From Edaphocola aurantiacus (GTDB taxonomy: Bacteria; Bacteroidota; Bacteroidia; Chitinophagales; Chitinophagaceae): 64,000 nt of DNA. Positions 16,180 through 34,104 of this stretch are shown here, piece by piece (the stretch's first letter is position 1; each line of letters begins with the position of its first letter). A program made the translations under genes and the position numbers. The notes under the pieces were generated by a model. The model was not told the origin of the DNA and did not search any database. It saw nothing but the letters and a program-made list of their open reading frames with translations. The DNA lies in assembly GCF_019797745.1 (NCBI RefSeq), contig NZ_VOSI01000003.1:1-64000 (forward strand), read 5' to 3'.

Positions 16180-16222
16180 GCAAACACATAGGGGTAGAAG
16201 GCAAGTATCTTGTCTTTATTGT
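16180..16222 (+). promoter_or_regulatory. Candidate ECF-sigma promoter (copy A), upstream of the sigma gene
   Basis: GCAAACACATAGGGGT (16180-16195), 12 nt, then TCTTGTCTT (16208-16216). The same two blocks at the same spacing occur at 19776-19812 before another gene of this locus. This is the pattern expected for an ECF-type -35/-10 pair. Placement 45-50 nt before the sigma gene suggests autoregulation. Recognition by this particular sigma factor is inference. Confidence 0.65.
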
Positions 16223-16267
16223 ACATTCACCATTGATTGTAATCGATTGATCACTATATAGCCGTAC

Positions 16268-16852
16268 ATGACCAATACTTTACCCTTACACTGGAACACA
16301 GAAGCAGGCTTCGAAGAGCTGTTCAGGGCTTTGTATGCTCCTTTGTACCGTTATGCATCCGGCTTGCTCGCAGATGAAATGCAGGCAGAGGAAGCGGTGC
16401 AGGATGTATTTCTGCGCCTATGGCAGCAAAAGGATCAGGTGTCTATAGAGACCAATGTCCAGGCATACCTCTACCGGGCTGTACATAACCAGTCTATGAA
16501 CATCCTAAACCATGAAAAAGTGAAAGAAAAATACCAGCAGTATGCCCGGCATAGCAGCCCTCAGTATGCTGATGGCCCGGCACAGGGAATGTATGCCAAA
16601 GAGCTGCAGCAGCAGATTGGCAAGGCTATGGAAAAAATCCCGGAGAAATGCCGTACCGTATTTCACCTCAGCCGGCAGGAAGAGCTGAGTTATAAGGAAA
16701 TTGCTGCAAAGTTAGGATTGTCTATCAAGACAGTGGAAAACCAGGTAGCTAAGGCGCTAAAGATCCTGCGTACAGAACTGAAGGATTACCTGCCCATGCT
16801 GGCGGTAATGGTGACCATATTCAAATTATTTTTTAAAAACGGGGATTTATGA
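16268..16852 (+). CDS. ECF RNA polymerase sigma-70 factor (FecI-type)
   Basis: This 194-residue sigma factor has region 2 (FEELFRALYAPLYRYASGLL, AEEAVQDVFLRLWQQ) and region 4 (CRTVFHLSRQEELSYKEIAAKLGLSIKTVENQVAKAL), the layout of Bacteroidota ECF sigma factors controlled by FecR-like proteins. The ATGA overlap with the next gene (16849-16852) ties it to its anti-sigma factor. A candidate promoter matching one further down the locus lies upstream, which would make it autoregulated. The signal is presumably sensed at the outer membrane by the STN-domain protein two genes on. Confidence 0.93.
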   Translation: MTNTLPLHWNTEAGFEELFRALYAPLYRYASGLLADEMQAEEAVQDVFLRLWQQKDQVSIETNVQAYLYRAVHNQSMNILNHEKVKEKYQQYARHSSPQYADGPAQGMYAKELQQQIGKAMEKIPEKCRTVFHLSRQEELSYKEIAAKLGLSIKTVENQVAKALKILRTELKDYLPMLAVMVTIFKLFFKNGDL

Positions 16853-17799
16853 TGGACGATTTACTCATAAAATATATTGTGGGCGAAGCCAGTGTAGCGG
16901 AACGGAATGAGGTGGAGGACTGGATCGGATCGGATCCTGCCAACCGTCAGGCTTATGAGCGACTGCATACAATCTGGCAACACGGTAAAACACCAGATGC
17001 TGCAACAGCACCGGATGTTGATGCTGCCTGGAAGCGATTTGCAGCTAGAAGAGCAGAAGAGCTTGCATACCATGCACCGATGACAATCCGTAAAAACAAT
17101 AGCTGGAAGCGATTTGCAGCCGCAGCTGCTGTACTACTGATCGTTTTTTCCGGAGCGCTTTGGTACTTTAACAGTGGTACCGTGTACCGTACCAAAGCCC
17201 TTGCAGAGGTGCTCACCTTACCGGACCAGTCAACCATTACGCTGAACAAAAATTCCAGGTTGTCCTATGCACGCAGTTTTAACCGTAAAGATCGTGTCGT
17301 AACATTAGAGGGAGAAGGCTTCTTTGATGTCGCCAAAAATCCGAAGAAACCCTTTATTATTCATGTCAAAGATATTGACGTAAGAGTCGTAGGCACCTCC
17401 TTCAATATCCGCTCTACAAATGATTTGACCGAAGTGGCCGTGGAAAGTGGTATTGTAAAAGTAATGGGTAAGGGACAGACCTATACATTAAGGGTAGGAG
17501 ACAAGGTTACCTTTAAGAAAGGGGTACCGCAGGCAGCGGTGGAGCAGATTCAAAACCAGCTATACCAGTATTACCGGACCAATATGTTTGTATGTGAAGG
17601 TACACCGCTACCGGAGCTCATACAAGGACTGAGTGATGCTTACGGGGTAGCGATAGACATACAGAACCCGCTACTGGAACAACAACACCTGACCAGTAAG
17701 TATCCACGGACCGATTCAATAGAACCCATACTACAAAAAGTAGCCCTTACGCTGAATGCCCGCCTCATCAGGCAAGCCAAAGGCTATATTCTTAAATAA
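16849..17799 (+). CDS. FecR-family anti-sigma regulator
   Basis: The 316-residue protein has an N-terminal cytoplasmic anti-sigma segment (DLLIKYIVGEASVAERNEVEDWI), a single membrane helix near residues 85-105 (RFAAAAAVLLIVFSGALWYF), and a periplasmic FecR domain (LPDQSTITLNKNSRLSYARSF, GEGFFDVAKNPKKPFIIHV, VVGTSFNIRS), followed by a DUF4974-like C-terminus (GTPLPELIQGLSDAYGVAIDI). It should hold the sigma factor until a partner STN domain signals. Start codon overlaps the sigma stop as ATGA; the following gene lies beyond a hairpin 67 nt downstream. Confidence 0.93.
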   Translation: MMDDLLIKYIVGEASVAERNEVEDWIGSDPANRQAYERLHTIWQHGKTPDAATAPDVDAAWKRFAARRAEELAYHAPMTIRKNNSWKRFAAAAAVLLIVFSGALWYFNSGTVYRTKALAEVLTLPDQSTITLNKNSRLSYARSFNRKDRVVTLEGEGFFDVAKNPKKPFIIHVKDIDVRVVGTSFNIRSTNDLTEVAVESGIVKVMGKGQTYTLRVGDKVTFKKGVPQAAVEQIQNQLYQYYRTNMFVCEGTPLPELIQGLSDAYGVAIDIQNPLLEQQHLTSKYPRTDSIEPILQKVALTLNARLIRQAKGYILK

Positions 17800-17801
17800 C
17801 A

Positions 17802-17839
17802 ATAACCGGAGCAGGACAAATATGTTTTGCTCCGGTTAT
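17802..17839 (+). terminator. Hairpin between anti-sigma and STN gene
   Basis: ATAACCGGAGCA (17802-17813) pairs perfectly with TGCTCCGGTTAT (17828-17839) around a 14-nt loop. No long T-run follows, so it could be a weak terminator or an attenuator that lowers read-through into the STN gene. A TTTG in its loop side (17826-17829) and TACGTTCG at 17849-17856, 19 bp apart, make a possible separate promoter for the STN gene. Confidence 0.5.
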
Positions 17840-17866
17840 GCTTAACTTTACGTTCGAATCCTGAAT

Positions 17867-19765
17867 ATGATAATACCTGTACACGAAAAATATTTTTATA
17901 AAAAAGTAATTTGTTTCCTGGCTTTCTTTTTCCTGTGCTGTACCGCTACTGCACAGGATTTGCTGCAATTGAAACTTACGGTGGATGCAGACAAACGTCC
18001 ATTGAAAGAAGTGCTGAACCAGATGGAGACAAAGGGCAAGTTTTTCTTCTCTTATAACAGCGATATCATTTCGGACAAAAAAATAGTGACCGTTCATGCA
18101 CAGGAACAACCGGTAGAGCAGATACTGGAAAACCTGCTGGGCACCGCCTATCGCTACCAGGTAATGGACAATCATATTATCATCAGGAGTGCCATCGGTC
18201 AGGGCATTATTGTATCCGGACGATTGATAGAAGCCGAAACCGGCCATCCTATTGAATTTGCTTCGGTGTACGAAAAGTCAGTGCTGTCCGGAACCATGAC
18301 CGATGCCAATGGCAACTTTAAGCTGCACATCAGGCAACCATTGAATAATTATGAACTCGTCATCAGTAAACTGTCTTATGAAGATACGGTGATACAGGTG
18401 CAGAAAAGTTTCTCTCCGCAGCAGCCGATCGCATTGCGCAAGTCTGTATACATGCTCGATAGCGTAGATGTGGTAGGTATACAGAATCACTGGCTGGCCC
18501 GCCGTCTGCTGAGTACCAAATCAAAAGTAAACAGCATTAACCTCAATAAATTCTTTGCCAGACAACCTTTCCAGTTTAGTGTATTACCCGGTATCAGTTC
18601 CAAAAACCGCCTGGGTAGCCAGACCATCAATAAATTTTCATTCAACCTGTTGGGCGGATACTCGGCAGGTGTAAGAGGCTTTGAGTATGGAACCGTATTC
18701 AATATTGTACAGAAAGATATGCAATATGTACAGCTCAGCGGCCTGTTCAATATGGTCGGTGGCAGCATGGAAGGCGTGCAGGTAGGCGGTGTATATAATT
18801 ATGTGCGCAATGACGTGGATGGTGTGCAGACCAGTGCTGTATTTAATTCGGCCAATGGCAGTGTACATGGTGTACAGGTCAGCGGGGTATATAACCGATC
18901 CATGCAGTTGCATGGTGTACAGGCCTCTGCGGTGTTTAACTGGAATAAAGAAGAGGTACACGGCGCGCAGATAACCGGTATCATCAATAAAGCCCATAAT
19001 ACAGAAGGCATACAGGCTTCAGGCTTTATGAACTGGAACGAGACCTCAATGGAAGGGCTGCAGTTTGCCGGAGTACTGAACAAAAATAATGAGTTGAACG
19101 GAGTGCAATTTACCGGTGGGGTCAATTACACACAGGAGCAGACCAAAGGGGTACAGATCTCCGGTATTGCCAATGTGACCCGTAAAATTATGGATGGGGT
19201 ACAGATCGCAGGCCTCCTGAATTATGCAAAGACAGTTAATGGTACACAGATCGGTCTCGTGAACATTGCTGACACTACAACAGGCTTAAGTATTGGCCTC
19301 ATCAATATTATTCTTAAAGGAAAACATAGTATTGATATCAATACCACTGAATGGCAACCATATAGTATAGCCTATAAATCCGGGTCTGACCGCTTGTATA
19401 ATATCTTCCAGGCAGGAGGTAATCTGCGTCCGGATCATAAGATGCTCAGCATCGGTTATGGTATTGGGAATACATTGCCACTTGGCCGTAAACATACGCT
19501 GGTACAGGAAATAAGCGTAAACACCATTTATGCCGGTAACTGGAACGAGCAGAATATGCTTTCACGCTATCAGCTCATGTACCAGTATCAGCTGCATCCT
19601 AACCTGCGTGTATATACAGGACCCGCTTTTTCAGTATTATACTACGAAAGCACCAATGTATATGAAGGCTTTGCTACGCCTTATAAAACAGCATATCCTT
19701 CTTTTGCCATAGGTAGCCATGTCAATTGCTGGCTGGGCTGGACCCTGGGCATTTCCATTTTTTAA
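17867..19765 (+). CDS. STN and carboxypeptidase-regulatory domain protein with surface repeats
   Basis: 632 residues. Signal peptide to about residue 30 (FLCCTATAQ); an STN domain at about 31-104 (VDADKRPLKEVLNQMETKGKF, VTVHAQEQPVEQILENLL); a carboxypeptidase-like regulatory domain at about 110-190 (GRLIEAETGHPIEFASVY, TDANGNFKL). Instead of a TonB-dependent plug and barrel, residues about 262-475 hold ten or more 15-16 residue repeats, [VIL]Q-x-[SAT]-[GA]-x-x-N...G (for example VQISGIANVTRKIMDG). They resemble the LA_2272-type surface repeats. The tail is beta-rich. STN domains usually talk to FecR, so this protein is the likely signal input for the upstream pair. Confidence 0.85.
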   Translation: MIIPVHEKYFYKKVICFLAFFFLCCTATAQDLLQLKLTVDADKRPLKEVLNQMETKGKFFFSYNSDIISDKKIVTVHAQEQPVEQILENLLGTAYRYQVMDNHIIIRSAIGQGIIVSGRLIEAETGHPIEFASVYEKSVLSGTMTDANGNFKLHIRQPLNNYELVISKLSYEDTVIQVQKSFSPQQPIALRKSVYMLDSVDVVGIQNHWLARRLLSTKSKVNSINLNKFFARQPFQFSVLPGISSKNRLGSQTINKFSFNLLGGYSAGVRGFEYGTVFNIVQKDMQYVQLSGLFNMVGGSMEGVQVGGVYNYVRNDVDGVQTSAVFNSANGSVHGVQVSGVYNRSMQLHGVQASAVFNWNKEEVHGAQITGIINKAHNTEGIQASGFMNWNETSMEGLQFAGVLNKNNELNGVQFTGGVNYTQEQTKGVQISGIANVTRKIMDGVQIAGLLNYAKTVNGTQIGLVNIADTTTGLSIGLINIILKGKHSIDINTTEWQPYSIAYKSGSDRLYNIFQAGGNLRPDHKMLSIGYGIGNTLPLGRKHTLVQEISVNTIYAGNWNEQNMLSRYQLMYQYQLHPNLRVYTGPAFSVLYYESTNVYEGFATPYKTAYPSFAIGSHVNCWLGWTLGISIF

Positions 19766-19775
19766 AATATTTTTT

Positions 19776-19812
19776 GCGAGCGCATAGGGGTTGAAGATGA
19801 GGTTCTTGTCTT
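19776..19812 (+). promoter_or_regulatory. Candidate ECF-sigma promoter (copy B)
   Basis: GCGAGCGCATAGGGGT (19776-19791), 12 nt, then TCTTGTCTT (19804-19812), almost identical to the sequence before the sigma gene at 16180-16216 and with the same spacing. It lies 20 nt before the ATG at 19832, so the second repeat protein and perhaps the genes after it would be induced by the same sigma factor. Function is inference from sequence identity and position. Confidence 0.65.
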
Positions 19813-19831
19813 ATTATAAAAGACAAAAAAC

Positions 19832-20959
19832 ATGCTTACAAACTTTAAATCTCTACTGTTCCAATCCCTGGTTGCCGGTGTAACGGGTATCACTTTACTG
19901 AATCCTGTTGCCGTGCAGGCGCAAGAGCATCAGCGTGCTCACTTCGGATTAGTATATCCAATCAGTACTAATGGTATTCGTGCGGCACAGATTAGCAATA
20001 CCGTTTCTTTACACGTACTGGCCGGTGTAAGTGCCGGAGAAGATGGTGCAGCCATTTCAGGACTGGCTACTATTATCAAAGGATCACAACGTGGTGTGGT
20101 GATCAGTGGTTTATGTACCCTGATCAGTGGAGATGTATCCGGTGTGCAGATCTCTGGCTTAGTGAATACTGCAGGATCGGGTAACGGAGCACAAGTAGCC
20201 GGACTGGTCAATACCGCCCGTAGTCAGGATGGTGTGCAGGTGGCAGGTCTGACCAATATAGCTTCGGTTAATGCAACTGCACAGATCGCAGGTCTTGTGA
20301 ATACAGCACAGACGGCAACCGTACAGATTGCAGGCATCAGCAACCTGAGTGCAAAAAGCAGTAATGTACAGATCGCAGGACTGGTCAATACCAGTGCGAA
20401 CAGTAACGGGCAGATCGCCGGGCTGGTCAATATTGCCGGTAAAGTTAAAGGAGTACAGATCGCCGGACTGGTCAATATCGCAGCAGAAAGCGATTGCCCG
20501 ATCGGTATCCTGAACCTGGTTAAAAACGGAGAAAAGCAATTGGGCGTTACCGTAGATGAAGCCGGAAATGCAGTACTGGCCTTACGTACAGGCGGCAAGC
20601 GTACTTATGGCATCCTGGGTGCGGGTATGAATATGCGTATGCCCGATGCGCCATATACAATGGAAGCGGGTCTCGGCTTACGTGTGCCGCTGAGCAAAGC
20701 ACTACGCCTCAACTTCGAGGTGAGCAATACCGCCAACACAAATTTCAAAGAAATCTCTTACTATAAATCCTCTTTCAGAGCCTTACTGGGCCTGCAATTG
20801 GGCCGTGTAGAACTGGTAGCCGGACCTACATTTAACTATGTCAATTATATCTCCGGACAGGAAAGCTATACCAGCCACAGCCTTTGGGATTTTTACGGTA
20901 AGGAGTCTACCAACAGCCTGTTCATCGGCGGATTCGCCGGAGTACATATCCGTATATAA
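19832..20959 (+). CDS. Secreted or outer-membrane surface-repeat protein
   Basis: The 375-residue product has a signal peptide (MLTNFKSLLFQSLVAGVTG... ending VAVQAQ). Residues about 65-235 hold at least ten copies of the repeat [AV]Q-[IV]-[AS]-G-L-[VTS]-N, for example VQISGLVNTAG and VQIAGLVNIAA, the same repeat class as in the preceding protein. The C-terminal 130 residues look like paired beta-strands (YTMEAGLGLRVPLS, FRALLGLQLGRVELVAGPTFNYV), as in small outer-membrane barrels. Function is unknown. It follows candidate ECF promoter copy B, so it is probably a regulon output of the sigma/anti-sigma pair. Confidence 0.75.
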   Translation: MLTNFKSLLFQSLVAGVTGITLLNPVAVQAQEHQRAHFGLVYPISTNGIRAAQISNTVSLHVLAGVSAGEDGAAISGLATIIKGSQRGVVISGLCTLISGDVSGVQISGLVNTAGSGNGAQVAGLVNTARSQDGVQVAGLTNIASVNATAQIAGLVNTAQTATVQIAGISNLSAKSSNVQIAGLVNTSANSNGQIAGLVNIAGKVKGVQIAGLVNIAAESDCPIGILNLVKNGEKQLGVTVDEAGNAVLALRTGGKRTYGILGAGMNMRMPDAPYTMEAGLGLRVPLSKALRLNFEVSNTANTNFKEISYYKSSFRALLGLQLGRVELVAGPTFNYVNYISGQESYTSHSLWDFYGKESTNSLFIGGFAGVHIRI

Positions 20960-21021
20960 CTTTTTACTACTTCAATACATACTCAACTACTATTTATCTC
21001 AATCTTAAAAACAAAATCATA

Positions 21022-21747
21022 ATGAAAAAGATCAGTTCATTAATTGCTATAGTATTCGTTATTGCCGGCATCGCCAGCCTGAGCTCCTGCCGCAAAATTA
21101 TCGGTGAAGGTCCTGTACTTACAGAAGAACGCACCGTTGCCAATTTTACAGAAGTAGAGACCAGCATTCCCGGTGCAGTATATCTTGCCGAGGGTACGGT
21201 GCAGCAGGTAAGAATAGAATCACAGCAGAACATCATTGATGTGGTAGAGACAAAAGTAGAAGACGGCGTATTGAAACTGAAATTGCGCAACAATACCATC
21301 CTCGCCAATAACAGTAATTTGAAAGTATACATTAGCATACCTAAATTCCGTGCGATCAGCCTGATGGGTTCCGGTAATGTAAATGCAGAAAGTGGTCTGA
21401 ATAGTTATGAACTGGATCTTAAACTGACTGGCTCCGGTAATATAGATATAGATCGCCTGTACGGCAGTAATCTGTACAGCCAGCTGACCGGCAGCGGAAA
21501 TATCCGCATCGGTGCCGGTACTGTAGAGTACCAGACCGTACGTATTACAGGCAGTGGCGATTATGATGCAAAAAATATGAACAGCAATTATGCCGATGTA
21601 ACCATTACCGGATCGGGAAATGCTACGGTAAAAGCCAATAATAGCCTGAAAGCAAGAATCTCCGGTAGCGGAAATGTGTATTACTATGGTAATCCGGTTA
21701 CGGATGTAAGTATTACTGGTTCCGGCAATGTAAAACATCAGAATTAG
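21022..21747 (+). CDS. DUF2807 (head-GIN domain) lipoprotein
   Basis: The 241-residue protein has a lipoprotein signal (IASLSSC, lipid-anchored Cys at about residue 24). The body matches the head-GIN/DUF2807 family: FTEVETSIPGAVYLAEG and many GSGN-type turns (MGSGNVNAES, LTGSGNIDID, ITGSGDYDAK, ISGSGNVYYYG), which form a right-handed beta-solenoid. Its biochemical role is not known. It lies 62 nt after the surface-repeat gene with no terminator between them, so it may share the ECF-controlled transcript. Confidence 0.88.
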   Translation: MKKISSLIAIVFVIAGIASLSSCRKIIGEGPVLTEERTVANFTEVETSIPGAVYLAEGTVQQVRIESQQNIIDVVETKVEDGVLKLKLRNNTILANNSNLKVYISIPKFRAISLMGSGNVNAESGLNSYELDLKLTGSGNIDIDRLYGSNLYSQLTGSGNIRIGAGTVEYQTVRITGSGDYDAKNMNSNYADVTITGSGNATVKANNSLKARISGSGNVYYYGNPVTDVSITGSGNVKHQN

Positions 21748-24648: not shown

Positions 24649-27600
24649 ATGAGCAAGAAGTTTACATTGATTGGCGCCCTTTGGGTGCTCATTTTCGCGT
24701 CTTTGTCTGCATACAAAGTGCAGGCGCAGACATGTCCCCGTATATTAAGTATTTATGTAGATGCCTGTACCCCCAGCGATGAGGGATACAATGAACTATT
24801 TACCTTCCAGGTAGGTACGACAGCTATCAGCAACTATAATAATATAGACATTACCTGGGCAACAACAAATAATCCCTTTAACGGCTTTATTAAAAATACA
24901 ACCACCGCGAGCAAGGTGACAGCGTTTAATAATGCGATCATCAATGCAAATGGTTGTGGTCGCCTGATTGAACCTACCGGAACTTCTTTGCCTGCTAATG
25001 CAAAGGTTGTTGTCTTTACCAGCCAGAATGTAGATCCTAACTATATTTCATTCGGAGCCCTGGCAGAGGATATGTATGTGCTCTTCCATAATAATCCATC
25101 CAATACCAATGGTTATTTTGCCAATAATGGATCCTCCGCCATGCGTTACCTTACTCTGGAGACAGCCAGTCCATCTTGTTCCACAACCGTTGGATATAAC
25201 AGGGCCAATCTGGCGAATACAGATGGTGCCAGTGTAAGCTTTAATGCCAGCGGTACACCTACATACCTGAATAATGGTTGTGTCGCGCCGGTTAATACCA
25301 GTCCGGGTGCGATGGCAGATATTACTGTCGCATCAGGATCAGTCAGTACTGCAACCTTATGCCGCAATACAGCGATGACTGCCATTGTTTTCAATGTGAC
25401 TAATGCAACCGGTGCAACAGCAACAAACCTTCCACCCGGTGTAAGCGGGACTTATAATAGTACGACGAATCAATTTACCCTGAGTGGTACCCCGACTACA
25501 GCCGGGTTATATAACTATAAAGTCAAGACCACGGGCGGTTGCGGCGTAGATTCTGTTATGGCTACATTGGCCGTTACTAATCCGGTCACACCGATTTTTA
25601 CCCAAGTCCCTGCAATCTGTTCTGGTGCTAGTTTATCAGCTTTACCAACACAATCTACTAACGGTATCACCGGAACCTGGTCTCCAGCCTTGAACAACAC
25701 GGCTACGACTACCTATACGTTTACGCCGAATGCTAATCAATGTGCCGGTAGTACTACAATGACCATCACCGTCAATCCGGTTGTTGATCCAGTATTTACC
25801 CAAGTCCCTGCCATCTGTTCTGGTGCTGCTTTATCTGCTTTGCCTACTCAATCGACTAACGGCATCACCGGGACCTGGTCTCCTGCCTTGAGTAATACGG
25901 CTACGACTACCTATACGTTTACGCCGAATGCTAATCAATGTGCCGGTAGTACTACAATGACCATCACCGTCAATCCTGTTGTTGATCCAGTATTTACCCA
26001 AGTACCTGCAATTTGTGCTGGTACTGCTTTATCGGCTTTGCCTACTCAATCTATTAACGGCATTACCGGAACCTGGTCTCCAGCCTTGAATAATACAGCT
26101 ACGACTACATATACATTTACACCAAATGCCAATCAATGTGCCGGCAATACCACGATGACCATCACAGTCAATCCAGTTGTTGATCCTGTATTTACCCAAG
26201 TGCCTGCCATCTGTGTCGGTGCTACTTTAGCGGCATTACCAACACAATCAAATAATGGGATTACCGGAACCTGGTCACCTTCCTTGAATAATACTGCTAC
26301 GACGACGTATACCTTTACACCGAGTGCCAATCAATGTGCGGGCAGTACCACAATGACCATCACTGTCAATCCGGTTATTGATCCGGTCTTTACTCAAATC
26401 CCTGCCATCTGTTCTGGCGCTAACTTAGCATCATTACCAACACAATCCACAAATGGTATCACAGGTAGCTGGTCACCTGCTATCAACAATACAGCGACTA
26501 CTACATACACATTTACACCTGATCAGAATCAATGTGCCGGTAGTACCACAACGACCATCACCGTCAATTCCGTTATTGATCCAGTATTTACACAGGTACC
26601 TGCAATCTGTTCTGGAACTACTTTGTCTGCTTTACCAACACAATCAAATAACGGTATCACCGGAACCTGGTCTCCTGCATTAAATAATACTACAACGACA
26701 ACGTATACCTTTACGCCTAGTCAGAATCAGTGTGCCGGTAGTACCACAATGACCATCACCGTCAACCCGGTTATTGATCCAGTATTTACCCAAGTACCTG
26801 CAATTTGTTCTGGCGCTAACTTAGCATCATTACCTACACAATCCACAAATGGTATCACAGGTAGCTGGTCGCCTGCTATCAACAATACAGCGACTACTAC
26901 ATATAACTTTACACCTGATCAAAATCAGTGTGCTGGTAGTACCACAATGACTATTGAGGTAAATAATAATACTACACCGACGTTCACCCAAGTACCTGCA
27001 ATTTGTGCTGGTACTGCTTTATCAGTTCTGCCAACAACTTCGAATAATGGTATTACCGGAACCTGGTCTCCAGCCTTGAATAATATGGCTACGACGACGT
27101 ATACTTTTACACCTGGTCAGAATCAGTGTGCCGGAACTACCACAATGATCATCACGGTCAATCCTGTTGTTAATCCAGTATTTACCCAAGTCCCTGCCAT
27201 CTGTTCTGGCGCTACTTTAGCGGCTTTACCAACGCAATCAAATAACGGTATTACCGGAACCTGGTCGCCAGCCTTGAATAATATGGCTACTACGACCTAT
27301 ACGTTTACGCCTGATCAGAATCAGTGTGCCGGCAGTGCCACAATGACGATTGAAGTCAATAATAATACTACACCCACGTTTACACAAGTACCTGCAATTT
27401 GTGCTGGCGCTAACTTAGCATCATTACCGACACAATCCACAAATGGTATTACCGGGACTTGGTCGCCTGCAATCAACAATACAGCGACTACTACATATAC
27501 ATTTACACCTGATCAGAATCAGTGTGCTGGTAGTACGACAATGACTATTGGGGTCAATAATAATACCACACCGACGTTCACACAAGTGGCTCCGATCTGT

Positions 27601-30600
27601 ACCGGTAATGCTTTAGCGGCTTTGCCAGCAACTTCGAATAACGGTATTACAGGTAGCTGGTCTCCTGCCTTGAACAATGCTGCAACGACGACCTACACAT
27701 TCACACCGAATGCAAACCAATGTGCGGTTAGTACTACAATGACAATTCAAGTCAATAGCAATACCACACCAACATTCACGCAAGTGCTTGCAATTTGTGC
27801 TGGCGCTAACTTAGCATCATTACCTACACAATCCACAAATGGTATCACAGGTAGCTGGTCACCTGCTATCAACAATACAGCGACTACTACATATACATTT
27901 ACACCTGATCAGAATCAGTGTGCGGGCAGTACCACAATGACCATTATAGTCAACCCTGTTGTTGATCCAGTATTTACCCAAGTACCTGCAATCTGTTCTG
28001 GCGCTACCTTAGCGGCTTTACCAACGCAATCAACTAACGGGATTAGTGGAAGCTGGTCTCCAGCCTTGAATAATACAGCTACTACGACCTATACGTTTAC
28101 GCCGAGTGCCAATCAGTGTGCCGGTAGTACAACAATGACCATCACCGTCAACCCGGTTATTGATCCTGTATTTACCCAAGTACCTGCAATTTGTGCTGGT
28201 GCTAACTTAGCATCATTACCTACACAATCCACAAATGGTATCACAGGTAGCTGGTCACCTGCTATCAACAATACCGCTACGACAACGTATACCTTTTCGC
28301 CAAGTGCAAACCAATGTGCGGGAACTACCACAATGACCATCACGGTCAACCCTGTTGTTGATCCTGTATTTACACAAGTACCTGCAATTTGTGCCGGAGC
28401 TATTTTAGCGGCTTTACCAACGCAATCAAATAATGGGATCACCGGAACCTGGTCTCCTGCATTAAATAATACCGCTACGACAACGTATACCTTCACGCCA
28501 AGTGCAAACCAATGTGCAGGAACTACCACAATGACCATCACGGTCAATCCTGTTATTGATCCTGTATTTACGCAAGTACCTGCGATTTGCGCTGGTACTG
28601 TATTATCAACTTTACCTACTCAGTCGAATAATGGTATTAATGGAACCTGGTCTCCTGCATTGAACAATACAGCAACTACTACATACACCTTTACGCCAAG
28701 TGTAAATCAATGTGCAGGTAGTACTACAATGACCATCACTGTCAATCCTGTTGTTGATCCAATATTTACACAAGTACCTGCCATCTGTTCTGGCGCTAAC
28801 TTAGCATCATTACCTACACAATCCACTAATGGTATCACTGGGACCTGGTCGCCTGCATTAAATAATACTACAACTACAACGTATACCTTTACACCTAGTC
28901 AGAATCAGTGTGCCGGTAGTACCACAATGACGATTGAAGTCAATAATAATACTACACCCACGTTCACACAAGTACCTGCAATTTGTGCTGGCGCTAACTT
29001 AGCATCATTACCGACACAATCCACAAATGGTATTACCGGGACCTGGTCGCCTGCAATCAACAATACAGCGACTACTACATATACATTTACACCTGATCAG
29101 AATCAGTGTGCTGGTAGTACGACAATGACTATTGGGGTCAATAATAATACCACACCGACGTTCACACAAGTGGCTCCGATCTGTACCGGTAATGCTTTAG
29201 CGGCTTTGCCAGCAACTTCGAATAACGGTATTACAGGTAGCTGGTCTCCTGCCTTGAACAATGCTGCAACGACGACCTACACATTCACACCGAATGCAAA
29301 CCAATGTGCGGTTAGTACTACAATGACAATTCAAGTCAATAGCAATACCACACCAACATTCACGCAAGTGCCTGCAATCTGTGCAGGAGTTGCTTTACCT
29401 ACTTTGCCTACTCAATCAAATAACGGTATCACCGGAACCTGGTCACCTGCTATCAACAATACAGCGACTACTACATATACATTTACACCTGATCAAAATC
29501 AATGTGCCGGTAGTACTACAATGACCATCACCGTCAACCCGGTGGTTGATCCAGTATTTACACAAGTACCTGCCATCTGTGCTGGTGCTGCTTTATCGGC
29601 TTTGCCTACTCAATCTACTAATGGGATTAGCGGAACCTGGTCTCCTGCCTTGAACAATACGGCTACGACTACATATACATTTACGCCAAGTGCAAACCAA
29701 TGTGCCGGCAGTGCTACAATGACCATCACCGTCAATCCGGTTGTTGATCCTGTATTTACACAAGTGCCTGCGATCTGTACTGGCGCTACCTTAGCAGCTT
29801 TACCAACCCAATCTACTAATGGTATTAGTGGAACCTGGTCACCTGCAATCAACAATACTGCAACTACTACATACACCTTTACGCCAAGTGCAAACCAATG
29901 TGCAGGTAGTACTACAATGACTATTGAGGTCAATAATAATACTACACCAACGTTTACCCAAGTCGCTCTGATCTGTGCTGGTGCTAACTTAGCAGCTTTA
30001 CCAACACAATCTACTAATGGTATCACTGGAACCTGGTCTCCAGCCTTGAATAATACGGCTACTACGACCTATACGTTTACGCCGAATGCCAATCAATGTG
30101 CCGGCAGTGCTACAATGACCATCACCGTCAACCCGGTTGTTGATCCTGTATTTACCCAAGTACCTGCAATCTGTGCCGGAGCTACTTTAGCAGCTTTGCC
30201 AACGCAATCAAATAACGGGATTAGTGGAACCTGGTCACCTGCCTTAAACAACACGGCTACGACTACCTATACGTTTACGCCGAATGCCAATCAATGTGCG
30301 GGCAGTACCACAATGACCATCACCGTCAATCCGGTTATTGATCCAATATTTACACAAGTACCTGCAATCTGTGCAGGAACTGCTTTAGCGGCTTTGCCGG
30401 CAACTTCGAATAACGGTATTACAGGTAGCTGGTCTCCTGCATTGAACAACACGGTTACTACTACATATACATTTACACCTGATCAAAATCAGTGTGCTGG
30501 TAGTACGACAATGACTATTGGGGTCAATAATAATACCACACCAACGTTCACCCAAGTCGCCCCGATCTGTGCTGGTGCCACTTTATCAGCTCTGCCAGCA

Positions 30601-33600
30601 ACTTCGACTAACGGTATCATAGGCACCTGGTCACCTGCATTGAACAATACGGCTACGACGACCTATACATTCACTCCAGCAGCAGGACAATGTGCTATTA
30701 CTACTACGATGACGATTCAAGTCAATAATAATACTACACCAACATTCACGCAAGTGCCAGCTATCTGCGCCGGTACCGCTTTATTAGCTTTACCAACGAC
30801 TTCGAATAATGGCATTACAGGGACCTGGTCGCCTGTCTTGAACAATACCGCAACGACAACGTATACCTTTACGCCAAGTGCAAACCAATGTGCAGGACCT
30901 ACCACAATGACGATTGAGGTCAATCCTGTTGTTGATCCAATATTTACACAAGTACCTGCGATTTGCGCTGGGACTGTATTATCAGCTTTACCTACTCAGT
31001 CGAATAATGGTATTAATGGAACCTGGTCTCCTACATTGAACAATGCCGCAACGACGACCTACACATTCTCTCCAGCAGTAGGACAATGTGCAGTTAATAC
31101 TACGATGACGATTCAAGTCAATAATAATACTACACCAACGTTCACGCAAGTCGCTCCGATCTGTACCGGTGCTACACTTTCGGCATTGCCTACCCAATCG
31201 ACTAACGGTATCACTGGCACCTGGTCACCTGCTTTAAATAATACCGCAACGACTACTTATACATTTACTCCAGCAGCAGGACAATGTGCGGTTACTACTA
31301 CGATGACGATTCAAGTCAATAATAATACTACACCAATGTTCACGCAAGTGCCTCCGATCTGTGCTGGTGCTACGTTATCAGCTCTTCCGGCAACTTCTAA
31401 TAATGGTATTACTGGAACCTGGTCTCCTGCTTTGAACAATACGGCTACGACAACATATACTTTTACACCAGGTGCGAATCAATGTGCAGCTACGACTACA
31501 ATGACGATTACGGTTAATCCAGCTGTAACACCAACGTTCACGCAAGTGTCTTCGATCTGTGCTGGTGCTACGTTATCAGCACTGCCAGCAACTTCGAACA
31601 ATAGTATCACTGGAGCTTGGTCACCTGCATTGAACAATACGGCTACGACTACTTATACCTTTACACCGGGTGCGAATCAATGTGCCGTTACGGCTACAAT
31701 GACGATTCAGGTCAATAATAATACCGTACCAACGTTCACACAGGTGGCTCCGATCTGTGCTGGTGCTACGTTATCAGCTCTTCCGGCAACTTCTAATAAT
31801 GGTATTACTGGAATCTGGTCTCCTGCCATGAACAATACGGCAACGACAACGTACACCTTTACACCGGGTGCAAATCAATGTGCAGCTACGACTACAATGA
31901 CGATTACGGTTAATCCAGCTGTAACACCAATGTTCACGCAAGTGCCTACAATCTGTGCGGGTACTACTTTATCAGCTTTGCCAACGACTTCTAATAATGG
32001 TATTACAGGTTCCTGGTCACCTGCATTGAATAATACGGCTACGACTACTTATACCTTTACACCGGGTGCGAATCAATGTGCAGCTACGACTACAATGACG
32101 ATCACCGTTAATCCGGCTGTAACACCAACGTTTACGCAGGTTGCTCCGATCTGTGCCGGTACCGCTTTATCAGCTTTACCAACGACTTCTAATAATGCTA
32201 TCACAGGTAGCTGGTCACCTGCCTTGAACAATGCCGCAACGACGACCTATACATTCACTCCAGCAGCAGGCCAATGTGCGGTTAATACTACGATGACGAT
32301 TCAAGTCAATAATAATAACACACCGACGTTCGTACAAGTCGCTCCTATCTGTACTGGCACTACACTTTCGGCTTTGCCTACCCAATCGACTAACGGTATC
32401 ACTGGTAGCTGGTCACCTGCAATCAACAATACAGCAACTACCACATACACATTCACTCCAGCAGCAGGTCAATGTGCGGTTAGCACTACGATGACAATTC
32501 AAGTCAATAATAATACCACACCAACCTTCACGCAAGTGCCTGCAATCTGTGCGGGTACTACTTTATCAGCTTTACCAACGACTTCGAATAATGGTATCAC
32601 AGGTTCCTGGTCTCCTGCCTTGAACAATGCTGCAACGACAACATATACTTTTACACCGGGTGCGAATCAATGTGCAACTACAACTACAATGACGATCACC
32701 GTTAATCCGGCTGTAACACCAACCTTCACGCAAGTGCCTGCAATCTGTGCGGGTACTACTTTATCAGCTTTACCAACGACTTCGAATAATGCTATCACCG
32801 GTAGCTGGTCTCCTGCTATGAACAATGCTGCAACGACTGCTTATACATTTACCCCGGCAACTGGTCAATGTGCGGCAACTGCAACGATGACCATCACTGT
32901 CAATCAACCGGTCACGCCTGCGTTTACCGCTGTATCACCGGTATGTATCGGATCGGTAATTGCTCCATTGCCTGCTATCTCTAACAATGGTATTAATGGT
33001 AGCTGGAGTCCGGCATTGGATAATACGACCACTACAACCTATACCTTTACGCCTGTAGCAGGGCAATGTGCTGGTACGGCAACAATGACTATTGTGGTGC
33101 AGCCTCACCCCTCAGGTAACCGCCAGGTAACTATATGTGCCGGTAGCAGCTATACATTTAATGGTGTGGTCTATACGGCAAGTAATCATACCGCAAAGGA
33201 TACTATTCCTAATCCGGCCGGATGTGATAGTATTATTACGCTTGATCTTACCGTATTGCCAGTGAATGCGATTGCAACGGTGCAAACCCTGAATGGATGC
33301 GGATCTATTGTGTTTAATGGGGTAACCTATACTCAGAATACGCAATTGAAGGATACTATACCAAACCAGTATGGTTGCGATAGTATCTACAGGATAACGC
33401 ATATTGTGATTTATCCGCAAAACGGAATAGCACGCAGCATAGATACAGTTGGCTGTGACAGGGTAGTATACAACGGAAAAACATACTATGAAAATACCAT
33501 ACTGAAGGATACGCTGTACACCGTTAATGGTTGCGACAGCCTTTACCTTACAGTGAATGTACATGTTGAAAAAATGGGGCTGACCTTGTCCGTTGAGCCG

Positions 33601-34104
33601 GAGCAGCCTTACGAAGGAGAGTATTTTACCTTAAAGACAGACAATACTTCCGGCATTGCATATGAGATCGTATCCTGGAGTCCTGCAAGTTTATTTAACG
33701 ATCAGTACAACAGGACGCAGCAGCTAAAATTAAATCAGGCTACAAACATCAGTGTCGTAGCAATATCTGCTTCGGGTTGTATGGACACAGCAACAATTGA
33801 TATTAACCTGAGACCTTATCGTAAAGATGTAATGATGCCGAATGCCTTTACACCAAATGGAGACGGAAAGAACGATGTTTTTGCACCCGTACTGGCATTG
33901 GATCGTAGCTATAATATGGTTGACTTCAGAATATTTAACCGCTGGGGTCAGGTGCTGCATTCCACATCTAATATCAATAGCGGATGGGATGGCACTTTCA
34001 AAGGGGCACCGCAAGAGCAGGGTGTTTATTATTATACGCTTACGATATACTTTATGGATGGGTCCAAACAGGCCTTTAAAGGAGACCTGATGTTGATCCG
34101 CTAA
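24649..34104 (+). CDS. Giant secreted repeat protein with type B T9SS C-terminal domain
   Basis: 3151 residues. A signal peptide (ends KVQAQ) leads into a lamin-tail-like domain (about 27-210; IYVDACTPSDEGYNELFTF, NAKVVVFTSQNVD) and an Ig-like linker. Then 38 tandem 66-residue units run from residue 315 to 2822, each with VPAIC, NGITG(T/S)WSPAL, TTTYTFTP, NQCAG and TMTI, and two Cys at unit positions 10 and 51. Three related 50-residue modules (KDTIPNxxGCDSI) follow, and the end is a gliding-motility-type domain (PNAFTPNGDGKNDVF, FRIFNRWGQVL, SGWDGTFKG). It is an SprB-like adhesin or filament candidate; function is inferred from architecture only. Confidence 0.88.
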   Translation: MSKKFTLIGALWVLIFASLSAYKVQAQTCPRILSIYVDACTPSDEGYNELFTFQVGTTAISNYNNIDITWATTNNPFNGFIKNTTTASKVTAFNNAIINANGCGRLIEPTGTSLPANAKVVVFTSQNVDPNYISFGALAEDMYVLFHNNPSNTNGYFANNGSSAMRYLTLETASPSCSTTVGYNRANLANTDGASVSFNASGTPTYLNNGCVAPVNTSPGAMADITVASGSVSTATLCRNTAMTAIVFNVTNATGATATNLPPGVSGTYNSTTNQFTLSGTPTTAGLYNYKVKTTGGCGVDSVMATLAVTNPVTPIFTQVPAICSGASLSALPTQSTNGITGTWSPALNNTATTTYTFTPNANQCAGSTTMTITVNPVVDPVFTQVPAICSGAALSALPTQSTNGITGTWSPALSNTATTTYTFTPNANQCAGSTTMTITVNPVVDPVFTQVPAICAGTALSALPTQSINGITGTWSPALNNTATTTYTFTPNANQCAGNTTMTITVNPVVDPVFTQVPAICVGATLAALPTQSNNGITGTWSPSLNNTATTTYTFTPSANQCAGSTTMTITVNPVIDPVFTQIPAICSGANLASLPTQSTNGITGSWSPAINNTATTTYTFTPDQNQCAGSTTTTITVNSVIDPVFTQVPAICSGTTLSALPTQSNNGITGTWSPALNNTTTTTYTFTPSQNQCAGSTTMTITVNPVIDPVFTQVPAICSGANLASLPTQSTNGITGSWSPAINNTATTTYNFTPDQNQCAGSTTMTIEVNNNTTPTFTQVPAICAGTALSVLPTTSNNGITGTWSPALNNMATTTYTFTPGQNQCAGTTTMIITVNPVVNPVFTQVPAICSGATLAALPTQSNNGITGTWSPALNNMATTTYTFTPDQNQCAGSATMTIEVNNNTTPTFTQVPAICAGANLASLPTQSTNGITGTWSPAINNTATTTYTFTPDQNQCAGSTTMTIGVNNNTTPTFTQVAPICTGNALAALPATSNNGITGSWSPALNNAATTTYTFTPNANQCAVSTTMTIQVNSNTTPTFTQVLAICAGANLASLPTQSTNGITGSWSPAINNTATTTYTFTPDQNQCAGSTTMTIIVNPVVDPVFTQVPAICSGATLAALPTQSTNGISGSWSPALNNTATTTYTFTPSANQCAGSTTMTITVNPVIDPVFTQVPAICAGANLASLPTQSTNGITGSWSPAINNTATTTYTFSPSANQCAGTTTMTITVNPVVDPVFTQVPAICAGAILAALPTQSNNGITGTWSPALNNTATTTYTFTPSANQCAGTTTMTITVNPVIDPVFTQVPAICAGTVLSTLPTQSNNGINGTWSPALNNTATTTYTFTPSVNQCAGSTTMTITVNPVVDPIFTQVPAICSGANLASLPTQSTNGITGTWSPALNNTTTTTYTFTPSQNQCAGSTTMTIEVNNNTTPTFTQVPAICAGANLASLPTQSTNGITGTWSPAINNTATTTYTFTPDQNQCAGSTTMTIGVNNNTTPTFTQVAPICTGNALAALPATSNNGITGSWSPALNNAATTTYTFTPNANQCAVSTTMTIQVNSNTTPTFTQVPAICAGVALPTLPTQSNNGITGTWSPAINNTATTTYTFTPDQNQCAGSTTMTITVNPVVDPVFTQVPAICAGAALSALPTQSTNGISGTWSPALNNTATTTYTFTPSANQCAGSATMTITVNPVVDPVFTQVPAICTGATLAALPTQSTNGISGTWSPAINNTATTTYTFTPSANQCAGSTTMTIEVNNNTTPTFTQVALICAGANLAALPTQSTNGITGTWSPALNNTATTTYTFTPNANQCAGSATMTITVNPVVDPVFTQVPAICAGATLAALPTQSNNGISGTWSPALNNTATTTYTFTPNANQCAGSTTMTITVNPVIDPIFTQVPAICAGTALAALPATSNNGITGSWSPALNNTVTTTYTFTPDQNQCAGSTTMTIGVNNNTTPTFTQVAPICAGATLSALPATSTNGIIGTWSPALNNTATTTYTFTPAAGQCAITTTMTIQVNNNTTPTFTQVPAICAGTALLALPTTSNNGITGTWSPVLNNTATTTYTFTPSANQCAGPTTMTIEVNPVVDPIFTQVPAICAGTVLSALPTQSNNGINGTWSPTLNNAATTTYTFSPAVGQCAVNTTMTIQVNNNTTPTFTQVAPICTGATLSALPTQSTNGITGTWSPALNNTATTTYTFTPAAGQCAVTTTMTIQVNNNTTPMFTQVPPICAGATLSALPATSNNGITGTWSPALNNTATTTYTFTPGANQCAATTTMTITVNPAVTPTFTQVSSICAGATLSALPATSNNSITGAWSPALNNTATTTYTFTPGANQCAVTATMTIQVNNNTVPTFTQVAPICAGATLSALPATSNNGITGIWSPAMNNTATTTYTFTPGANQCAATTTMTITVNPAVTPMFTQVPTICAGTTLSALPTTSNNGITGSWSPALNNTATTTYTFTPGANQCAATTTMTITVNPAVTPTFTQVAPICAGTALSALPTTSNNAITGSWSPALNNAATTTYTFTPAAGQCAVNTTMTIQVNNNNTPTFVQVAPICTGTTLSALPTQSTNGITGSWSPAINNTATTTYTFTPAAGQCAVSTTMTIQVNNNTTPTFTQVPAICAGTTLSALPTTSNNGITGSWSPALNNAATTTYTFTPGANQCATTTTMTITVNPAVTPTFTQVPAICAGTTLSALPTTSNNAITGSWSPAMNNAATTAYTFTPATGQCAATATMTITVNQPVTPAFTAVSPVCIGSVIAPLPAISNNGINGSWSPALDNTTTTTYTFTPVAGQCAGTATMTIVVQPHPSGNRQVTICAGSSYTFNGVVYTASNHTAKDTIPNPAGCDSIITLDLTVLPVNAIATVQTLNGCGSIVFNGVTYTQNTQLKDTIPNQYGCDSIYRITHIVIYPQNGIARSIDTVGCDRVVYNGKTYYENTILKDTLYTVNGCDSLYLTVNVHVEKMGLTLSVEPEQPYEGEYFTLKTDNTSGIAYEIVSWSPASLFNDQYNRTQQLKLNQATNISVVAISASGCMDTATIDINLRPYRKDVMMPNAFTPNGDGKNDVFAPVLALDRSYNMVDFRIFNRWGQVLHSTSNINSGWDGTFKGAPQEQGVYYYTLTIYFMDGSKQAFKGDLMLIR
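27338..27787 (+). repeat. 450-bp duplicated block, first copy
   Basis: This block (end of unit 9 to the start of unit 12) recurs at 28922-29371, exactly eight units (1584 bp) downstream, with only two mismatches that I could find by reading both. Neighbouring units differ far more. It indicates a recent multi-unit duplication or gene conversion. Confidence 0.9.
28922..29371 (+). repeat. 450-bp duplicated block, second copy
   Basis: Near-identical to 27338-27787, spanning the end of unit 17 to the start of unit 20; units 18-19 encode the same protein sequence as units 10-11. Confidence 0.9.

Follow-up and report, generated by a model that had tools for sequence, protein, structure and literature searches.

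Five genes on the forward strand of a 64,000-nucleotide stretch of the Edaphocola aurantiacus genome (the window) probably encode a cell-surface-signalling circuit of the FecI/FecR type whose outer-membrane transducer is not a TonB-dependent transporter. In order, their products are an extracytoplasmic function (ECF) sigma factor, a FecR-type anti-sigma factor, a 632-residue protein with an STN signalling domain, a 375-residue repeat protein and a DUF2807/GIN protein (Table 1). To our knowledge, STN-FecR signalling is understood almost solely for TonB-dependent importers that sense their own import substrate. A small non-transporting outer-membrane transducer, if the reading is true, would separate signalling from import, and would tie FecR systems to the recently described Dma proteins.

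Regulators and domains of the predicted transducer

The sigma factor matches the Pfam r2 and r4_2 regions and TIGR02985 (181 bits, cut-off 126). The fecR gene starts within the last 4 bp of the sigma gene (ATGA), as the initial annotation had read the pair, and its product carries PF04773 (E 3e-17) and FecR_C PF16344 (E 2e-8), both over cut-off, with a single transmembrane (TM) stretch judged by eye. Two PDB entries named "putative anti-sigma factor" are related to it, 4m0n (E 5e-14) and 4m0h (E 9e-14). The STN protein is encoded apart from FecR, in an open reading frame (ORF) of its own, and no single chain at this locus spans both membranes. The whole genome (3.69 Mb) has two FecR and two STN matches, and every FecR adjoins one STN protein. 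In the second set, on contig C2, a sigma gene, fecR and a 1185-residue ORF with the second STN are grouped.

The 632-residue protein was expected to have an STN and a carboxypeptidase-regulatory-like domain (CPD) and to lack a plug and a TonB barrel, and HMM searches bore this out. STN PF07660 scores 30.4 bits (cut-off 28.4), CarbopepD_reg_2 PF13715 51 bits (32.2) and the LA_2272 repeat NF047436 37 bits (25); the VC2662 family NF047437 matches below its cut-off, and neither Pfam nor NCBIfam finds a Plug or TonB barrel. A TonB plug or barrel hidden in the protein was also considered and rejected, as Pfam finds either domain in 0/69 close members and 0/24 of a wider set (E<=0.01). STN is found in 61/69 close members and CPD in 69/69. 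The wider set keeps STN in 18/24 and CPD in 14/24, so distant members lose CPD, not STN.

The AlphaFold2 model of the full chain (69 aligned sequences, pTM 0.56) has STN and CPD at pLDDT mostly 80-94, falls to 35-52 at residues 191-250, climbs to residue 280 and stays at 87-98 from 281 onward, all beta. Residues 231-632 folded alone reach a mean pLDDT of 93.5 and pTM 0.84, with one low stretch at 351-360. For the full chain, the sole Foldseek match at E<=0.001 is the SusC N-terminal extension 9hfj, which aligns with the CPD (E 2e-4; E 2e-6 by profile). The signalling domains of PupA, 2a02 (TMt 0.68, E 0.035), and PupB, 9cuv (TMt 0.61, E 0.074), follow. Residues 231-632 alone give nothing at E<=0.001; the top rows are outer-membrane barrels such as NspA, OmpA, OmpX, OprF and Opa over ~146-187 columns, and the 50 rows listed are all outer-membrane or designed barrels except one phage tail fibre. 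Larger porins match too, so Foldseek does not fix the strand number. A sequence search for a solved relative of the repeat/barrel part found none at E<=0.1.

The last eight strands (residues 486-632) alternate polar and apolar faces, with a face difference of 1.0-3.7 on a scale in which the analyst assigned positive values to Tyr and Trp, and these residues are predicted to form a small outer-membrane barrel after the repeats. In six repeat strands the alternation is not clear (0.1-1.8). A large transmembrane barrel that includes the repeats was considered, as the DSSP strands are 12-14 residues long, and was rejected because these six lack strong alternating hydrophobicity. The repeat domain is probably a beta-solenoid, a reading backed by no solved solenoid, since the Foldseek rows are barrels and one tail fibre. 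The initial annotation had proposed a solenoid instead of a barrel; the repeats and the missing plug and TonB barrel stand, and the ~150 residues after the repeats are now a predicted small outer-membrane barrel. If the barrel has an even number of strands and the usual topology, the repeats would lie on the periplasmic side rather than at the surface.

Conservation of the locus and fused relatives

Gene order was compared in a named-genome set, the best 80 of 171 confirmed matches, and in order-, class- and phylum-level stretches hand-picked from the hits (78 of 395 genomes in the wider search). As the sets were selected by score or by hand, the locus counts are not frequencies. The nearest named relative among those best 80 is Edaphocola flava, whose 632-residue protein is 98% identical. 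In 67/80 named-genome loci a sigma gene and fecR directly precede the STN/repeat gene on the same strand, and the arrangement is therefore more than chance. Of the remaining 13 loci, two are truncated by the end of the contig (FecR is still visible in one of them) and the other 11 lack both regulators. At order level, 24 of 39 stretches are STN-type by alignment, including the same-genus locus L035; both regulators lie directly upstream in 19/24 and FecR only in 3/24. The other 15 comprise ten fused genes (family f3, below), one locus that may hold a split fusion (L058), three with a repeat-only gene (L069, L072 and L073) and the genome's own TonB-type locus on contig C2 (L071). Of 20 class- and phylum-level loci, 13 are STN-type, with both regulators directly upstream in 11 and FecR only in one; in the other seven the repeat/barrel protein has no STN, and neither regulator is encoded next to it.

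The synteny anticipated by the initial annotation is thus present in all three sets. Its suggestion of a sensor that is not an importer holds insofar as the sigma/FecR/STN order recurs across families without a TonB-dependent transducer; its placement of the repeats at the surface probably does not, as in a barrel of ordinary topology they would face the periplasm.

The f3 proteins join the same module to a membrane anchor. In these proteins the C-terminal repeat/barrel module, 27-35% identical to the window protein over ~400 residues, comes after a short N-terminal segment, a single TM stretch and a long linker (the last two judged by eye); its barrel is assigned by homology to the folded window module. 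The fused gene lies directly behind an ECF sigma gene in eight full cases and one partly N-masked case of the ten; the tenth starts at a contig end. L058, which may be an eleventh fusion split over two ORFs at a contig start, was excluded from this count. The window sigma factor finds four of the eight f3 sigma factors at E 7e-4 to 3e-3, and the rest not at E<=0.01. Two that were scanned score 64 and 71 bits for TIGR02985 (cut-off 126), and the best NCBIfam match is TIGR02952, below its cut-off. By these sequence comparisons, the f3 sigma factor is of a different clade from that of the window. Since the module is fused to an anchor behind a sigma gene here, and elsewhere bears an STN beside FecR, it appears to be part of the signal path.

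Beside one fused sigma/anchor/barrel pair, L057 (7987-9688) encodes a second ECF sigma factor and a TPR protein with a weak zinc-finger match just below cut-off; judging from these genes, two sigma systems are neighbours there.

The promoter motif and its predicted targets

GGGTA-N14-TGTC is the commonest bipartite motif upstream of these genes, found in 55/109 non-redundant upstream regions, while any motif reached at most 7 in 10 resampled sets. The aligned sites read CATAGGGGTA-N14-TGTC, and a T precedes TGTC in 44/53. The motif model was built on L074-L153; tests of single regions used other loci, some of them near relatives or from the same genomes. In the genome that holds the window, the perfect pattern TAGGGGT-N14-TTGTC occurs only twice, at P1 and P2 (Table 1), and the reversed pattern does not occur. 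In a genome of the same genus the P2 site scores 18.0, and shuffled sequences score at most 10.5. The TonB-type locus on contig C2, tested singly, has no such motif upstream.

As a fixed regular expression, the motif lies upstream of the sigma gene in 43/66 cases, of a repeat-only paralogue in 28/43 and of a receptor-like gene of 760-860 residues in 23/32. The counts are 3/37 for GIN genes, 0/67 each for fecR and the STN gene, and 9/726 for other ORFs, with resampled means of 0.1-0.6 per set; the STN gene also has none (0/13) in loci without a visible sigma/FecR pair. A site can be missed when the sigma start is called too early, as in L036 and L191, whose perfect sites fall within the called ORF. 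From this distribution we infer that the sigma factor drives its own operon and outer-membrane-type targets from the motif, that is, autoregulation.

At the window, the 375-residue protein matches the repeat/barrel model (E 2e-66) and neither Pfam nor NCBIfam at E<=0.1. The 62-bp gap between its gene and the GIN gene has no motif, and the two are probably co-transcribed. The initial annotation had counted them as two further surface-type proteins of the signalling locus; a repeat/barrel protein and a GIN protein do follow, and from their position behind a sigma-type promoter of their own they look like a target operon, not extra sensor parts.

A scan of 16 chosen genomes gave 38 perfect sites, spread over all but two of them, and 6 sites of the reversed pattern. 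At two of the perfect sites, G174:C40 and G191:C1:1364897, a repeat-only paralogue starts 22-25 bp after the end of the site; these paralogues lie either on a different contig from the sigma locus or 675 kb away from it. Three more, L242, L243 and L248, lie before or across the start called for a secreted, outer-membrane-type protein of ~200 residues. Homologues of this protein lie beside the STN gene or within two genes of it in family f18 (E 4e-7 to 3e-12): L061_5, L062_5, L063_6 and L066_3 lie near the STN gene, and the L242, L243 and L248 proteins are unlinked predicted targets. It has no match in the window's own genome, and the L242 protein has none in NCBIfam. As the motif precedes unlinked repeat paralogues and ~200-residue proteins in these lineages, the predicted regulon agrees between them. 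The promoter sequence and the small predicted regulon make the system directly testable by reporter.

Other sites may be chance occurrences. Among 13 sites read, five (L234, L235, L245, L256 and L257) are either within an ORF or not near one, and L246 is inside one ORF and before another; all six may be such. The window's own genome has seven one-mismatch sites, and the five that were read (all but L207 and L211) each lie inside an ORF of at least 100 residues. One of the genome's one-mismatch motifs, L212 (G000:C5:237855-237880), is 41 bp before a small membrane-protein gene and inside the end of the preceding ORF, and may be chance as well. A genome-wide regulon at two mismatches was not used, because it gave 165 sites, fewer than the 331 of the control. 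In two genomes of one genus a perfect motif lies 125-128 bp ahead of the gene for a secreted protein of 137-138 residues (L239 at G191:C1:955652 and L250 at G174:C9:110466), which is a possible further target.

The receptor-like gene raises the question of which protein is the sensor. It lies at most two genes downstream, and among 11 such proteins scanned all have a CPD, eight have a Plug (E<=0.001; four over the curated cut-off) and two a TonB barrel, so that nine have one or the other. With no STN of its own, this protein could sense the cue while the STN/barrel protein merely supplies the STN; the frequent motif upstream of its gene fits such a split, as does the proposal in PMC2729926 that VreA pairs with an unknown outer-membrane partner. 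This arrangement is unlikely. The window locus has no receptor-like gene, and none is on the same strand among the neighbours listed for the 15 Dyadobacter loci with downstream sequence (nine of them have a long ORF on the opposite strand). Moreover, classical cell-surface signalling also has its receptor among the sigma targets, and a promoter is therefore no sign that the receptor-like protein is the sensor. As the adjacent receptor-like gene of many relatives looks like a target, importers are not absent from the pathway, contrary to what the initial annotation implied.

The opposite-strand ORF, of 882-896 residues, recurs a few genes downstream in Dyadobacter L087, L097, L101, L112, L121, L123, L130, L131 and L135.

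Table 1. Positions in the window of the five genes, the domains of the 632-residue protein and the two predicted promoters
Feature	Position	Strand	Basis
Predicted ECF promoter P1 (TAGGGGTAGAAGGCAAGTATCTTGTC), 5' of the sigma gene	16189..16214	+	De novo motif, aligned sites, genome scan
ECF sigma factor, TIGR02985 Sig70_bacteroi1 type, 194 aa	16268..16852	+	ORF list, Pfam, NCBIfam
FecR-type anti-sigma factor, 316 aa: DUF4880-like N-terminus, TM stretch, FecR, FecR_C	16849..17799	+	ORF, Pfam
Predicted outer-membrane transducer, 632 aa: signal peptide (by eye), STN, CPD, linker, beta-repeats, C-terminal barrel	17867..19765	+	Pfam, NCBIfam, AlphaFold2
STN signalling domain, residues 61-108 by Pfam; fold begins near residue 33	18047..18190	+	Pfam, Foldseek
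CarboxypepD_reg-like domain (CPD), residues 116-201	18212..18469	+	Pfam, Foldseek, profile
Low-confidence linker, residues 191-234	18437..18568	+	AlphaFold2 pLDDT 35-52 in blocks 191-250
LA_2272-type 15/16-residue beta repeats (GxQxxGxxN), residues 235-484	18569..19318	+	NCBIfam, AlphaFold2
Predicted small 8-strand outer-membrane beta-barrel, residues 486-632, last residue Phe	19322..19762	+	AlphaFold2, Foldseek, strand alternation
Predicted ECF promoter P2 (TAGGGGTTGAAGATGAGGTTCTTGTC), 5' of the 375-aa gene	19785..19810	+	Motif, genome scan
STN-less repeat + barrel paralogue, 375 aa, predicted target of the sigma factor	19832..20959	+	ORF, repeat/barrel model
DUF2807/head-GIN protein, 241 aa	21022..21747	+	Pfam E 1e-47

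Outside this locus, the window has a 3151-residue ORF (24649-34104, +) with many near-identical repeats (FTQVPAICAG...TTTYTFTP). Its C-terminal stretch presumably resembles gliding-motility/T9SS-type C-terminal domains.

Proposed mechanism and comparison with known systems

The computed domains, gene order, motif and motif distribution suggest a circuit in which the reading of the motif by the sigma factor, the STN-FecR contact, the direction of control, the proteolysis and the cue are inferred. At rest, contact with the STN would hold or protect FecR, by analogy with FoxA and FoxR; PMC11637429 reports that the FoxA STN shields FoxR from proteolysis in the absence of signal. When the outer-membrane module binds a cue or is perturbed, the contact would change, FecR would be cut and the sigma factor freed. 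Free sigma factor would then transcribe its own operon from P1 and its targets from TAGGGGT-N14-TTGTC promoters, here P2 with the STN-less repeat/barrel paralogue and the GIN protein, and in relatives also the receptor-like gene and the ~200-residue protein. That a partner in cell-surface signalling can be without a barrel is known from VreA (PMC2729926).

Several results weigh against this proposal. Foldseek ties the C-terminal part to barrels only weakly, with a best E of 0.007 and a target-normalised TM of 0.26-0.63 for 8-strand barrels. Tested singly, the motif is in just 8/16 f1 and 8/17 class-level upstream regions and is absent upstream of f11/f12, f18 and fused f3 genes; no substitute motif was found in f18 or f3, where the best are in 3/24 and 4/15 regions and shuffles give 3-4 and 2-3. 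The short form GGGTA-N13-15-TGTC is not rare, as the window has three and 12/100 shuffles reach that number. Pfam finds no anti-sigma domain in the two fused f3 proteins scanned. Both regulators are missing from 2/24 order-level and 1/13 class/phylum STN-type loci, and the 11 named-genome loci without sigma or FecR beside the STN/barrel gene (nine Chitinophaga records, one Flavihumibacter metagenome-assembled genome and [Flexibacter] sp.) have no motif upstream of it. The sigma/FecR pair is present in two further Chitinophaga records, L125 and L151.

The orphan genes, L082, L083, L084, L085, L086, L089, L090, L098, L104, L142 and L149, all keep their open reading frame. Either their products signal to an unlinked FecR or their STN has another role.

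Such copies would also fit a model in which the STN/barrel protein is an outer-membrane protein of structural or adhesin type that is simply co-transcribed, with FecR under some other control. STN-less repeat/barrel proteins occur without sigma or FecR neighbours in the seven class/phylum loci described above, and others are themselves predicted sigma targets, which fits the same view. This explanation is nevertheless quite improbable: STN is kept where CPD is lost, the STN gene lies inside the sigma operon with no motif of its own, FecR and STN matches pair up in the window's genome, and in f3 the module is fused to a TM anchor behind a sigma gene.

Within the proposed circuit, whose likelihood it shares in part, the transducer might gauge the state of the envelope. 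The assembled barrel would keep the STN near FecR, and lost assembly or a wider periplasm would free the sigma factor. This version has somewhat less than an even chance. The f3 proteins tether the same outer-membrane module by a long linker to an inner-membrane segment, as in Dma proteins, whose loss raises vesiculation according to PMC13088901; the protection of FoxR by the FoxA STN without signal and the prevalence of outer-membrane-type proteins among the predicted targets are also consistent with it. DUF2807 has been unified with Toastrack, a domain linked to envelope stress in PMC11237479; that paper also has Toastrack predicted to be intracellular, at odds with a secreted GIN protein. 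The variable repeat number could equally mean ligand binding. The envelope gauge is tentatively favoured over a ligand receptor because the predicted targets are mostly outer-membrane-type and the Dma analogy concerns vesiculation.

Taken with the fusions, there is nearly an even chance that one outer-membrane module of beta-repeats and a small barrel has been coupled to ECF sigma factors twice independently, by STN-FecR docking and by a Dma-like covalent tether. It would then sense the state of the outer membrane independently of TonB, and the STN-less copies of the sensor in its regulon would provide feedback.

The circuit resembles the FecIRA type (FecA/FecR/FecI, FpvA, FoxA/FoxR, PupB/PupR) in its ECF sigma factor, its FecR with FecR_C, the adjacency of the genes, the N-terminal STN on a predicted outer-membrane protein and a motif consistent with autoregulation. 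The known transducer, however, is a TonB-dependent receptor with a plug and a 22-strand barrel, of which no window-type member scanned shows a sign (0/69 and 0/24); in the window protein the STN is instead followed by a CPD, beta repeats and a predicted small barrel at the C-terminus, and the system is predicted to target several outer-membrane-type proteins. The LA_2272 and VC2662 families (NF047436 and NF047437) both match the window protein, the first by its repeat unit over the curated cut-off and the second below its cut-off; what these models name is the repeats or a short protein, and neither involves an STN, a CPD or a link to a sigma factor.

No description of the sigma/FecR/STN-repeat-barrel arrangement was found in literature judged mostly by titles and abstract openings, with subscription papers outside its scope. 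The PUMA3 system VreA-VreR-VreI of Pseudomonas aeruginosa also joins a barrel-less STN protein to a FecR-like regulator and an ECF sigma factor. VreA is described in PMC2729926 as mainly soluble and probably periplasmic, with a TolA/TonB-like C-terminal domain, whereas the C-terminal part of the window protein is all-beta repeats and a predicted barrel, with no such domain. The Dma anti-sigma factors, as described in PMC13088901, share the f3 layout of an ECF sigma gene followed by an N-terminal segment, TM stretch, long linker and C-terminal module; the likeness noted is one of layout. Dma anti-sigma factors are further marked by an N-terminus that binds the sigma factor and by a sigma factor of the ECF21 group. 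The window differs from Dma in having separate proteins in the inner and outer membranes, which presumably connect via STN and FecR. Since PUMA3 and Dma bracket it, the window system appears to be a variant of cell-surface signalling, not a new kind.

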